The translations under genes and the position numbers were made by a program. Of a DNA stretch of 64,000 bases, positions 53,230 through 58,125 are shown piece after piece. Origin of the DNA: Bacteroidota bacterium. GTDB lineage: Bacteria; Bacteroidota; Bacteroidia; JACCXN01. Below the pieces are notes generated by a model. That model searched no databases. It saw nothing but the letters and a program-made list of their open reading frames with translations, and had not been told where the DNA came from. The stretch lies in the NCBI GenBank assembly GCA_013696965.1, contig JACCXN010000044.1, forward strand, positions 62,001-126,000, read 5' to 3'. The stretch's first letter is position 1. Each line of letters opens with the position of its first letter.

Positions 53230-54288
53230 TTAGAGGGTTTCTAAGGTGGCTTTGCTGTTAAGGTATTTGTCGATTAAGCGAGGTATTGGAAATTGATTTA
53301 AAGTGTCAAAATGTATTGATTTTAATTCCTTTGGCAAGTTTTTCATCTCCTTGATTTCTATTTCATAAAAAACAGCGTAAATAATTTGATGGGAGAGGAT
53401 ATGTTTATATTCAAGAGATACCTTAATTAGATCCCAATTCACTCCGGTTAATTCTTTAAAAAATGGGTGTTTTAATATACTTAAAGGCTTTTCCCTTGAT
53501 TTTAATTCTATTAATGGAAATTCATATAAATTTTTCCAAATATCCTGACCTGTTCTCTTTTGTACAAAAAGCCAATCGTTACTCTTTAAATGCAGGTAAT
53601 GAAAAAACCTTTCTTTTTGTTTGGTTTTCTTTGCTTTTACAGGGCGTGAATCAATTGAATTGTGTTTCAAGGCAAGGCAATTTTGAGCAAAAGGGCATAA
53701 GGCGCATGAAGGTTGTTTAGGGGTACAAATAGTAGCGCCAAATTCCATTGTTGCCTGGTTGAACAAATCAGGCCTTTTAGCATCCATAAGATCTTTCGCC
53801 ACTTCAAGAAATTGTTTTTTTCCTATTAATGAATCAATAGGAGTATTTATATCAAAGAGTCTAGAGAAAAACCGGAAAACATTTCCATCCACAACAGGAT
53901 GAGGTAAGTTGTAAGCAAATGAAGCAATTGCAGCTGCTGTATAATCTCCCACACCCTTTAATTCCTTAAGCTTAATGTAATTATTTGGGAAAATCCCGTT
54001 ATGTTCATTAGTGATTAGCCTTGCAGTAAAATGGAGGTTTCTAGCTCTTGAATAATATCCTAATCCCTGCCACAATTTCAATACCTGGTTCTCGTCAGCT
54101 AAAGCCAGGTCGGAAACAGTGGGGAATGAGTGTATAAAATTAAGATAATAGGGCAAGCCTTGGTCAACTCTTGTTTGTTGAAGAATAACCTCTGAAAGCC
54201 AAATGAAATAAGGATTTTTGGTGTTTCTCCAGGGTAAATCCCTTTTGTGTTGAAGATACCAGTTAATTAGAATCTCTGAGAAGTGCAT
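53230..54288 (-). CDS. mutY: A/G-specific adenine DNA glycosylase
   Basis: MutY removes adenine mispaired with 8-oxoguanine. The helix-hairpin-helix LKGVGDYTAAAIASFA is near residue 108 with the catalytic aspartate in VVDGNVFRF just after. The [4Fe-4S] cluster ligands follow the C-x6-C-x2-C-x5-C pattern in CTPKQPSCALCPFAQNC near residue 190. A C-terminal NUDIX-like domain recognises 8-oxoG. The 352-aa length is full. It heads the mutY-ssb-gldE-gldD run. Confidence 0.95.
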   Translation of the reverse strand: MHFSEILINWYLQHKRDLPWRNTKNPYFIWLSEVILQQTRVDQGLPYYLNFIHSFPTVSDLALADENQVLKLWQGLGYYSRARNLHFTARLITNEHNGIFPNNYIKLKELKGVGDYTAAAIASFAYNLPHPVVDGNVFRFFSRLFDINTPIDSLIGKKQFLEVAKDLMDAKRPDLFNQATMEFGATICTPKQPSCALCPFAQNCLALKHNSIDSRPVKAKKTKQKERFFHYLHLKSNDWLFVQKRTGQDIWKNLYEFPLIELKSREKPLSILKHPFFKELTGVNWDLIKVSLEYKHILSHQIIYAVFYEIEIKEMKNLPKELKSIHFDTLNQFPIPRLIDKYLNSKATLETL

Positions 54289-54313
54289 CGGATAAGAGTT
54301 ACATTTAAAAAGT

Positions 54314-54321
54314 CAAAAGTA
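54314..54321 (-). promoter_or_regulatory. -7 promoter element of mutY
   Basis: Read leftward, TACTTTTG matches TAnnTTTG exactly, 25 bp ahead of the mutY ATG. It is divergent from, and about 30 bp away from, the HU promoter. Confidence 0.5.
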
Positions 54322-54334
54322 AAGAATTATTTTT

Positions 54335-54361
54335 TTGTTTGATTTTTTAAAATTATCTTTG
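54335..54361 (+). promoter_or_regulatory. Promoter of the HU operon (-33 TTG, -7 TATCTTTG)
   Basis: TTG (54335-54337) and TATCTTTG (54354-54361) are 16 bp apart, the same spacing as in the HMA promoter. The -7 element runs on as GCAGCCC, a string shared with the rplU promoter. Confidence 0.65.
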
Positions 54362-54428
54362 CAGCCCTTAAAACAAATAGTATTAACATATTAACATAAA
54401 TAATTCAACAATTTTAATTTTTAGCATC

Positions 54429-54722
54429 ATGACAAAAGCGGATTTAGTAGCGGAAATTTCTGAAAAAACCGGAATAGAAAAACTAGCAGTACAAACAACA
54501 GTAGAAGCTTTTATGAAGTCAATCAAGACTTCCCTTGAGAAAGAAAGAAATGTTTATTTAAGAGGGTTTGGTAGTTTTATAGTTAAAAAAAGAGCAGAAA
54601 AAACAGGACGCAATATTTCTAAAAACACAACAATTATTATTCCTGCACACAACATACCATCATTTAAGCCGGCAAAATCTTTTGTAGAAAAAATTAAGAA
54701 AAACGTAAAAGTATCTAAATAA
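54429..54722 (+). CDS. HU family DNA-binding protein
   Basis: This 97-aa HU/IHF-fold protein begins MTKADLVAEISEKTGIEKLA and has the RGFGSFIVKKRAEKTGRNIS segment leading into the DNA-binding beta arm (residues ~50-75), with the proline-containing IIIPAHNIPSFKP after it. It bends and compacts DNA as a dimer. It is the first gene of a rightward unit with a TPR protein, a 30-aa basic protein and rng, and has a strong promoter. Confidence 0.95.
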   Translation: MTKADLVAEISEKTGIEKLAVQTTVEAFMKSIKTSLEKERNVYLRGFGSFIVKKRAEKTGRNISKNTTIIIPAHNIPSFKPAKSFVEKIKKNVKVSK

Positions 54723-54728
54723 AAAAAG

Positions 54729-55544
54729 TTGAATAAGTTTCAATTGATTGTTCTTTCAGGAGCAATTTTAATGTTCGTTCTTTTATATTTTGCACCTAAA
54801 ACCGAATCTTTGGTTGAAAAGGCAAAAATTGCTTCTGTGGATCATAATTTTGAAACGCATGTTGCTGATTTTAAGGCCAAATTGCCTGCTGCTGAGCTTG
54901 AAAAGATTGTGCTGGTTGAAAAAGCATTGTCAAAATCCAGCAATCAGAATAGTTTGGTGCTGATTGATTCACTGATCGGATTATGGGATTTGAATAAAAA
55001 CCCTGCTGCGGCTTCAATTTATGCTTTTCAAAAAGCAGAGATGACAAAATCAGTTGAGCATTGGCAAAATGCTGGGGAACGCTCATTTTATGCTGCCAGA
55101 TTTGTTGAGGGCCATTTGTCCAAGCACATTTATGAACAGGCAATAAAAAGCTATGAAGAGGTTTTAAAAGTTCAACCCGGGAATTTAGATTCAAAAATAA
55201 ATCTGGCAGTGTGTTTCGTGGAAAATTCTGTGGAACCCATGAAGGGGATCCTTTTGCTAAGAGAAGTACTTGAGGTTGATTCCTTAAATGTTAAGGCTCA
55301 TCTTAATTTAGGATATTTTTCTCTAAAATCAGGACAATTTAATAAAGCAATAGATCGTTTTGAAAAGGTAATTGAAATCAAACCTGATTATATGGAGGCA
55401 TACCTTTATATGGGAGATGTATACGAAACCAAGGGTGATAATAAAAAGGCCATTGAATGTTATGAAAAATATCGAGATGGGGTTGATAATGCTTCCCTGA
55501 GTGCCGAAATAGCGAATTACATAGAGAAATTAAAAATAAAATAA
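54729..55544 (+). CDS. TPR-repeat protein with an N-terminal membrane anchor, 271 aa
   Basis: A short hydrophobic segment (FQLIVLSGAILMFVLLYFAP) near the N-terminus probably anchors the protein to the inner membrane. The rest contains TPR repeats, clearest at YEEVLKVQPGNLDSKINLAV (near residue 140), GYFSLKSGQFNKAIDRFEKV and MGDVYETKGDNKKAIECYEK near the C-terminus. The start is TTG at 54729, 6 bp after the HU stop. I recall Bacteroidota HU and rng flanking such a TPR gene, but its function is unknown. Confidence 0.82.
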   Translation: MNKFQLIVLSGAILMFVLLYFAPKTESLVEKAKIASVDHNFETHVADFKAKLPAAELEKIVLVEKALSKSSNQNSLVLIDSLIGLWDLNKNPAAASIYAFQKAEMTKSVEHWQNAGERSFYAARFVEGHLSKHIYEQAIKSYEEVLKVQPGNLDSKINLAVCFVENSVEPMKGILLLREVLEVDSLNVKAHLNLGYFSLKSGQFNKAIDRFEKVIEIKPDYMEAYLYMGDVYETKGDNKKAIECYEKYRDGVDNASLSAEIANYIEKLKIK

Positions 55545-55566
55545 TATAAACTTAAAAAAGAATATC

Positions 55567-55659
55567 ATGCCAAGCGGAAAAAAGAGAAAAAGACATAAAA
55601 TGGCAACGCACAAGCGCAAAAAACGCCTAAGAAAAAACAGACACAAGAAAAAGAAATAG
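55567..55659 (+). CDS. 30-aa highly basic protein, likely bS22/mS38-like (AURKAIP1/COX24) ribosomal protein
   Basis: The ORF begins at ATG 55567, 22 bp after the TPR gene, and ends at TAG 55657-55659. The product starts MPSGKKRKRHKMATHKRKKR and ends in four lysines; 20 of its 30 residues are Lys or Arg. Nearly identical short proteins sit before rng in other Bacteroidota as I recall. The pattern (KRxxKM...HKxKKxLRxxR) resembles actinobacterial bS22 and the C-terminus of mitochondrial mS38, which thread into the small ribosomal subunit. The ORF is real with good confidence; ribosomal membership is inferred from resemblance. Confidence 0.75.
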   Translation: MPSGKKRKRHKMATHKRKKRLRKNRHKKKK

Positions 55660-55736
55660 TCTTTTTTTTCATAGATCAGTATTTGTTTCCAATACCGGAC
55701 TCAATTCTGACTTACCATAATATATAATTAAAGGTA

Positions 55737-55765
55737 AGCCCTTGGTTTTAATAAAGCCATGGGCT
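55737..55765 (+). terminator. Weak hairpin between the 30-aa ORF and rng
   Basis: AGCCCTTGG (near 55737) and CCATGGGCT (near 55757) pair with one mismatch around an 11-nt loop. It is followed by ordinary AT-rich sequence rather than a T run, so it may be an attenuator or RNase-sensitive leader structure upstream of rng rather than a full stop. Confidence 0.35.
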
Positions 55766-55792
55766 ATCTGTATTTAATTTAAAATAATTTTT

Positions 55793-57343
55793 GTGAATAA
55801 TGAATTAGTAATTAATTCCTCACCCAACGAGGTAGTAATAGCCCTGCTTGAGAATAAAAGGCTGGTTGAATTACATAAGGAAAAGAGAAACAATGCTTTT
55901 TCTGTAGGTGATATTTATTTGGGAAAAGTAAAAAAGGTTATGACAGGGCTGAATGCAGCATTCGTGGATGTTGGATATGAGAAAGATGCCTTTTTACATT
56001 ACCTTGATCTTGGTCCCCAAGTGCAATCTCTTTTCAAATACGTTAAAAATACCAGGAACGGAAAACAAAACCACTCCTCTTTATTGTATTTTAAAACAGA
56101 AGAAGATATACCCAAAACAGGAAAGATTAACCAAATAGTGCAAAGCGGCCAGGAAATAATGGTTCAAATTGCAAAAGAACCTATTTCAACCAAAGGGCCA
56201 AGGATAAGTTCCGAAATTTCTTTACCTGGAAGATATATAGTACTTGTTCCTTTTTCTGACAGGATTTCTGTTTCTCAAAAAATAAAGGATTCCGAAGAAA
56301 AAGAAAGATTGAAAAATCTTATAAAGAGTATAAAACCTAAAAATTTTGGTGTAATTATTCGAACAGTTGCTGAAAACAAGAAGGTTGCTGAACTTGATGC
56401 AGACATCAAAGATTTAGTTGACAAGTGGAATTCTTGTTATGAATCCTTAAAACCTGCTAAAGCTCCAGAAAAATTATTGGGAGAACTCGATAGAACTTCA
56501 GCTTTTTTAAGGGATATGCTAAATGCTTCATTTAACAATATCAATGTTGATGATCCTGCATTGTATGATGAAATGAAAACCTACCTTCAGACAATTGCCC
56601 CTGATAAGGAAAAAATTGTGAAGCAATATAAAGGCGACCTTCCAATTTTTGAATCCTTTGGGATTGAAAAGCAAATTAAAAGTCTTTTTGGAAAGACGGT
56701 GAATTTAAAAAGCGGAGCTTACCTAATTATTGAGCATACCGAGGCTTTGCACGTTATTGATGTAAACAGTGGTAACAGGGCTAAATCTGAAACCAGCCAG
56801 GAGGGCAATGCACTGGATGTAAATTTAGAGGCAGCAACTGAAATTGCTCGTCAATTAAGGTTAAGGGATATGGGTGGTATTATAGTGGTTGATTTTATTG
56901 ACCTTCATGATGCTACTAACCGTAAATTGCTGTATCAGAAAATGAAGGATGAAATGGCCTTGGATAAAGCCAAACATACTGTACTTCCTCCAAGTAAATT
57001 CGGGCTCATTCAAATTACCCGCCAGCGCGTAAGGCCTGAGATGGATATTAAAACCACTGAAAAGTGCCCTGCCTGTGGGGGTTCTGGAGAGGTACAAGCA
57101 AGTATATTACTTGTAGATGAAATTGAAAACAATTTAAGGTACATCATACAGGAGCAGAATGAAAAATCGCTTACACTTGGTGTGCATCCTTATATTGAAG
57201 CCTATTTAACCAAGGGTATTTATAACTTCCAAATAAAATGGTTGTTCAAATATAAAAGGTGGATAAAAATTAAGCCAGTAAATGCTTATCATTTTGTTGA
57301 ATACCGTTTTTTTAATGCGGCTCAGGAGGAAATAATAAAATAA
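55793..57343 (+). CDS. rng: Ribonuclease E/G family endoribonuclease (RNase G)
   Basis: This enzyme cleaves single-stranded RNA and processes rRNA ends. An N-terminal S1-type domain (VGDIYLGKVKKVMTGLNAAF near residue 42) is followed by the RNase H-like and DNase I-like catalytic core with the metal-binding aspartates in ALHVIDVNSG (near residue 320) and GIIVVDFIDL (near residue 362). The Zn-link TEKCPACGGSG is near residue 427, though its cysteine spacing is CxxC as usual. The start is GTG at 55793. The 516-aa length lacks the long RNase E tail, hence RNase G type. Confidence 0.94.
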   Translation: MNNELVINSSPNEVVIALLENKRLVELHKEKRNNAFSVGDIYLGKVKKVMTGLNAAFVDVGYEKDAFLHYLDLGPQVQSLFKYVKNTRNGKQNHSSLLYFKTEEDIPKTGKINQIVQSGQEIMVQIAKEPISTKGPRISSEISLPGRYIVLVPFSDRISVSQKIKDSEEKERLKNLIKSIKPKNFGVIIRTVAENKKVAELDADIKDLVDKWNSCYESLKPAKAPEKLLGELDRTSAFLRDMLNASFNNINVDDPALYDEMKTYLQTIAPDKEKIVKQYKGDLPIFESFGIEKQIKSLFGKTVNLKSGAYLIIEHTEALHVIDVNSGNRAKSETSQEGNALDVNLEAATEIARQLRLRDMGGIIVVDFIDLHDATNRKLLYQKMKDEMALDKAKHTVLPPSKFGLIQITRQRVRPEMDIKTTEKCPACGGSGEVQASILLVDEIENNLRYIIQEQNEKSLTLGVHPYIEAYLTKGIYNFQIKWLFKYKRWIKIKPVNAYHFVEYRFFNAAQEEIIK

Positions 57344-57349
57344 AAGAGG

Positions 57350-57377
57350 CCGTCTCAAAAGTAAAATTTTGAGACGG
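57350..57377 (+). terminator. Strong terminator after rng
   Basis: CCGTCTCAAAA (57350-57360) and TTTTGAGACGG (57367-57377) pair perfectly around GTAAAA and run straight into TTTTTTT, just after the rng stop at 57343. Confidence 0.9.
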
Positions 57378-57452
57378 TTTTTTTATTTTGATTTTTATTT
57401 AACTAATACAGCATTATAATTTTCCCCCAGATATTATTTTGAATCAAGTATT

Positions 57453-58125
57453 TTAGGTAACAAAAAAGGCTCTGTGAACTGTTTTTAATGCTGACACCCA
57501 TCTTTTCTTAATGTTATGGGCGATTGCAATAATGCCGAACTCTGTATTTACTTTCTTGATGCCTCTTAATCAAAAGCGCTTGAACTGCATGTTATGTTTT
57601 ATTTGACTCGTTATCGTTTCTTTGTAATTTAATCTTTTGTTGTTCGGACAAATATAACTGTCACTTGTTTCATCATATACCAGGTTTTCTAAACGATAAA
57701 TGTTTTTCTTAAACTTTCTCGTCTGTTCATAATGGAAGTTCTGGAACTTTACATATGCGGTGATCTCTTTCTCTTTTAAATATTCATAATTTTGCTTCAC
57801 TTCCATAACCTGCATCTGCATTGATGTTTGAGGTAATTTTGGTAAATGATTTTCAAAAGCATTTTCAAGGTGCGGGATTAAAGTTGTGCTATCGGAAGGT
57901 TTTTGATGGATGCTATAAGATAAAATAAACCTGTCTTCTGTTGCCATCTGCACATTGTAGCCAACCTTGAGTTGGCCATTTAACATATGATCTTCTTTCA
58001 TTGGAATAACGGTTGCTTCCTGATCGGTCTTGCTGTAGCTAATACTATCGCCCATAATTTCAAGATCAGTTTCATACTTTTCAAGCCGCGGCAGATAATC
58101 CTTTAGTTGAAGAAAAAATTAAGGG
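57453..58125 (-). pseudogene. IS1182-type transposase remnant
   Basis: The longest open piece (58055 to 57570) reads SYSKTDQEATVIPMKEDHML, GYNVQMATEDRFILSYSIHQ and later ENLVYDETSDSYICPNNKRL, typical of Bacteroidota IS1182 transposases. Decay is plain: homology begins after a stop near 58125; the catalytic-region ADAGYGSEA is in another frame at about 57794-57822, bounded by two compensating indels; most of the Cys-rich middle is deleted, joining NKRL to FKRF; and the end (RGIKKVNTEFGIIAIAHNIK) is in a third frame down to the stop at 57453. It cannot make an active enzyme. IS termini were not found. Confidence 0.85.

Follow-up and report, generated by a model that had tools for sequence, protein, structure and literature searches.

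A 30-codon basic reading frame next to rng in a Bacteroidota genome very probably encodes ribosomal protein bS22

Judging by its sequence, the short reading frame at 55567–55659 (+) almost certainly encodes ribosomal protein bS22, and it is to be placed with the bS22 proteins of the Bacteroidota and Borrelia type on the basis of a full-length match to chains of solved ribosomes, its size and charge, its presence as a single copy and its near-universality. This is not a new protein: it is already known, and its structure has been solved in relatives. The frame lies in a stretch of 64,000 nucleotides, here called the window, from contig JACCXN010000044.1 of a Bacteroidota bacterium (assembly GCA_013696965.1, positions 62,001 to 126,000 of the forward strand). 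It runs from ATG to TAG and specifies a product of 30 aa, MPSGKKRKRHKMATHKRKKRLRKNRHKKKK, beginning 22 bp after the stop of the preceding TPR gene (at 55544) and lying between that gene and rng, the RNase E/G gene at 55793–57343, all of which agrees with an earlier sequence-only reading of this DNA. The product was there described as two-thirds Lys or Arg, which is slightly too high; these residues make up 18 of the 30 (60%), and a value of 70% is reached only if the three His residues are added. Both figures for the frame, 30 aa and 18 Lys plus Arg, are close to what is expected of bS22 (about 30 residues, roughly 60%). Given just 30 codons, it is also plausible that the gene is absent from gene-caller output.

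When MPSGKKRKRHKMATHKRKKRLRKNRHKKKK was used as a single-sequence query against all PDB chains (phmmer), three matches were obtained in all, each spanning nearly the full length. The closest were two chains from Bacteroidota ribosomes, 9i5v chain 10 (E 1.2e-10, 93% identity), annotated as an AURKAIP1/COX24 domain-containing protein, and 7jil chain 5 (E 3.8e-10, 90% identity), named 30S S22, from what is presumably the Flavobacterium johnsoniae 70S ribosome. Both are equal in length to the window protein, align with it end to end without gaps and differ from it by two or three substitutions. The third was the bS22 of Borrelia burgdorferi (8fmw chain V; E 1.1e-5, 71% identity). A profile search of the PDB is not independent of these results, since the 9i5v, 7jil and 8fmw chains formed part of the profile. 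The proposal that the frame specifies a bS22-like protein of the small subunit is borne out by near-identity to solved ribosome chains and by conservation across the phylum, rng lying downstream in most of the class members examined.

The naming of these chains in the PDB is not uniform, and an identical chain sequence appears both as 30S S22 and as 50S L38 (7jil, 9oz9, 9ozn, 9ozz, 9p0e). The latter name looks like a labelling error, because bL38 is treated as a separate 50S protein in published work, where the F. johnsoniae bS22 is a 30S protein (PMC10618245).

A single strong match to bS22 was found in the source genome; 57 of 60 relatives, and 290 of 296 genomes of the phylum, also had a match. 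As judged from these searches, bS22 is a single-copy gene that is near-universal in the phylum. Two of the three relatives that gave no match at first do carry a diverged bS22 directly upstream of rng, MPCGRKRKLRKVKRHKFKKRRRKNRHKKKKV at locus L063 and MPCGRKRKLRKIKRHKLKKRRRLNRHKKKLR at locus L066, and the start of each resembles that of the Borrelia protein. The third (G001) is an assembly that is 81% complete, and its rng is cut by the end of a contig.

The binding site and contacts of bS22 have been described for Borrelia, F. johnsoniae, Mycobacterium and Cutibacterium (PMC10618245, PMC10085706). The Borrelia protein sits in a pocket of 16S rRNA formed by h2, h27, h44 and h45 and touches H68 of 23S rRNA (PMC10618245), while that of Cutibacterium lies between h27, h44 and h45 and makes a contact with H67 that constitutes an inter-subunit bridge (PMC10085706). 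From the near-identity of the window protein to solved bS22 chains, we infer that it has the same ribosomal role. Within the 30S pocket of 16S h2, h27, h44 and h45, the peptide would fold into a short, bent helix, with its Lys and Arg side chains neutralising rRNA phosphates, and would reach H67/H68 of 23S rRNA to provide an extra inter-subunit bridge. Such a bridge could steady the 70S ribosome in the vicinity of its neck and of the decoding region.

A second role off the ribosome, as a released peptide with antimicrobial or translation-inhibiting activity, could be imagined besides the function as bS22 or instead of it, as the free bS22 peptide of C. acnes inhibits both bacterial growth and cell-free translation (PMC10085706). 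However, any highly cationic helical peptide may inhibit in the same way, MPSGKKRKRHKMATHKRKKRLRKNRHKKKK is without a secretion signal, and near-invariance across a whole phylum is more in keeping with a fixed rRNA pocket than with a weapon, so that such a role is very unlikely.

The surroundings of the bS22 gene show a conserved block, of which the first gene is that of an HU-family DNA-binding protein at 54429–54722 (+; PF00216, E 1.5e-27). It is followed after 6 bp by a gene for a TPR-repeat protein at 54729–55544 (+; matches to TPR families), the TTG start of which is uncertain, then by bS22, and finally by rng (+), of the ribonuclease E/G family (PF10150, E 8.5e-101). Among the 30 nearest loci, HU and rng were both present in all 30 and the TPR gene in 25; mutY was counted in 19, from fetched stretches that were often too short to reach it. 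Over 79 loci sampled across the phylum, HU was found upstream on the same strand in 65 and the TPR gene upstream in 41, and 44 had rng on the same strand downstream. The order HU–(TPR)–bS22–rng is conserved within the class, and the synteny with rng put forward in the sequence-only reading was recovered at all 30 of the nearest loci and in most of the class members examined. No rng was detected in the 1.5 kb fetched at loci outside the class. Since HU is kept upstream so widely, and rng goes undetected outside the class, bS22 has been associated with HU for a long time, whereas its pairing with rng is characteristic of the class.

The 22-bp leader ahead of bS22 (55545–55566, +) is A-rich and has no Shine–Dalgarno sequence but carries A at positions -3 and -6, a pattern that was tallied over the 79 loci and is as expected of Bacteroidia. 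Starts that lack a Shine–Dalgarno sequence are known in the phylum (PMC6847099). Several loci outside the class show GGAG-like stretches before bS22. Between bS22 and rng there is a stable hairpin (55732–55769, +), which may be a terminator or an element at which the 3' end of the mRNA is formed or processed. The 66-nt stretch that contains it (55725–55790) folds at -18.9 kcal/mol, with a z-score of -2.97 against shuffled sequences, while a scan for terminators did not call the hairpin, and a scan of 54000–58000 against Rfam gave no RNA family. Because of this hairpin, the co-transcription of bS22 and rng is uncertain, and a co-expression with HU and RNase G, as envisaged in the sequence-only reading, is something we can only infer.

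The constant company of rng at all 30 nearest loci and the hairpin in between might bring to mind an attenuator or leader peptide, in which the basic run slows ribosomes and so controls RNase G. Yet the peptide is kept outside the class, where rng was undetected downstream, chains nearly identical to it are found in solved ribosomes, and leader peptides rarely hold identity at the level of single residues across a phylum; a regulatory leader is less likely still than a role off the ribosome. Two other features were seen further downstream. On the minus strand, a frame of 161 aa at 57570–58055 resembles part of a transposase by eye and is possibly a remnant, with no Pfam match at E 0.01. A strong hairpin with a T run just after rng (57343–57384) has the look of a terminator on either strand.

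The codons of the bS22 frame were compared at 78 other loci with those of the window gene. Differences were seen at 1121 of 2184 codons, 997 of them synonymous and 124 non-synonymous, counts that do not represent independent events because the loci are mutually related and many were chosen as best matches. Changes at codon positions 1, 2 and 3 numbered 300, 76 and 1061, respectively. The synonymous excess marks the frame as one that is translated and held under strong purifying selection and, taken with the conservation of the peptide, shows it to be genuinely coding. Antisense ORFs over the same bases had no comparable conservation or synonymous support. The basicity of the frame itself lies far outside what chance would give; of the ATG-initiated ORFs of 25–60 aa in the whole window, the runner-up has 30% Lys plus Arg as against 60%, and when the window was simulated 30 times with a second-order Markov model, the maxima were 28–40%. 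The A-rich DNA of this region does favour Lys codons, but a chance open frame has a negligible probability and is refuted by a content of Lys and Arg (60%) well above the simulated maximum of 40%, by the synonymous excess, and by conservation in 290 of 296 phylum genomes.

Beyond the Bacteroidota, one of the closest known proteins is the bS22 of B. burgdorferi, which has been found nearer to that of F. johnsoniae than to that of mycobacteria, both being set beside mS38 and eL41 (PMC10618245). It shares with the window protein an MPxGxKRK start and an NRHKK end, and has 61% Lys plus Arg (PMC10618245), but it has 28 residues in the PDB chain, a GUG start, and comes from another phylum. The actinobacterial proteins (M. 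smegmatis, C. acnes) are similar to the window protein in length and charge. In published structures, they superpose with F. johnsoniae bS22 in one pocket of the 30S subunit (PMC10618245, PMC10085706), and the C. acnes and F. johnsoniae proteins are 37% identical (PMC10085706). The proposed resemblance to actinobacterial bS22 could not be separated from composition at the sequence level, as the hhalign score of the window protein against the actinobacterial profile, 13.8, was reached by 17 of 60 column-shuffled controls; the actinobacterial sequence used was confirmed against PDB chains. A match to PF08213 (COX24_C), also anticipated by the sequence-only reading, failed to appear, with MPSGKKRKRHKMATHKRKKRLRKNRHKKKK scoring 12.1 bits against a Pfam gathering score of 23. 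None of the 60 relatives had a protein above this cut-off, and one control genome did. The mitochondrial protein mS38 (AURKAIP1/COX24) and eL41 fill a pocket corresponding to that of bS22 (PMC10618245), and both are very basic helices, as the window protein would be, but mS38 is longer and the window protein falls below the PF08213 cut-off. With PF08213 below its cut-off and hhalign no better than shuffled controls, kinship with actinobacterial bS22, mS38/COX24 and eL41 rests on the published shared site and not on sequence. By analogy, the window protein would work as these proteins do, and common ancestry is unsupported by the sequence comparison.

While the bS22 gene is ordinary, and its identification in itself of low interest, it does belong in the annotation, as neither any NCBIfam model nor the Pfam cut-off catches MPSGKKRKRHKMATHKRKKRLRKNRHKKKK. 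A curated model built from the bS22 sequences gathered here would detect the gene across the phylum.

The pattern of apparent losses was less expected and is the part that deserves more attention. In one genus of family f65 the absence looks genuine, as bS22 was found in 5 of 12 genomes and had no match anywhere in the other 7, all at least 95% complete. The locus was opened in three of the seven genomes without a match (G325, G334 and G279); these keep HU and a convergent downstream gene with nothing like bS22 between them, and no match was found anywhere in the three genomes at E values up to 10. At the corresponding locus of a congener (G133), bS22 is retained between the same two genes. 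Family f77 gave a match in just 3 of its 27 genomes, about half of the 27 being incomplete, and at the rng loci of three of its genomes (L064, L065, L067), in GC-rich DNA, none of the many basic frames was convincing as bS22. An outright loss in at least two lineages, covering 7 of the 12 genomes in the genus and 24 of the 27 in the family, several of which are incomplete, appears somewhat more probable than not, and the matches may possibly be missing because copies of bS22 have diverged past the reach of the profile. No report of bS22 loss was found in the literature searched, which is weak evidence of novelty. With the lineages that are seemingly without bS22, one could test directly why most members of the phylum keep it almost unchanged, and if the loss is true, close relatives with and without the gene provide a natural experiment on its function.
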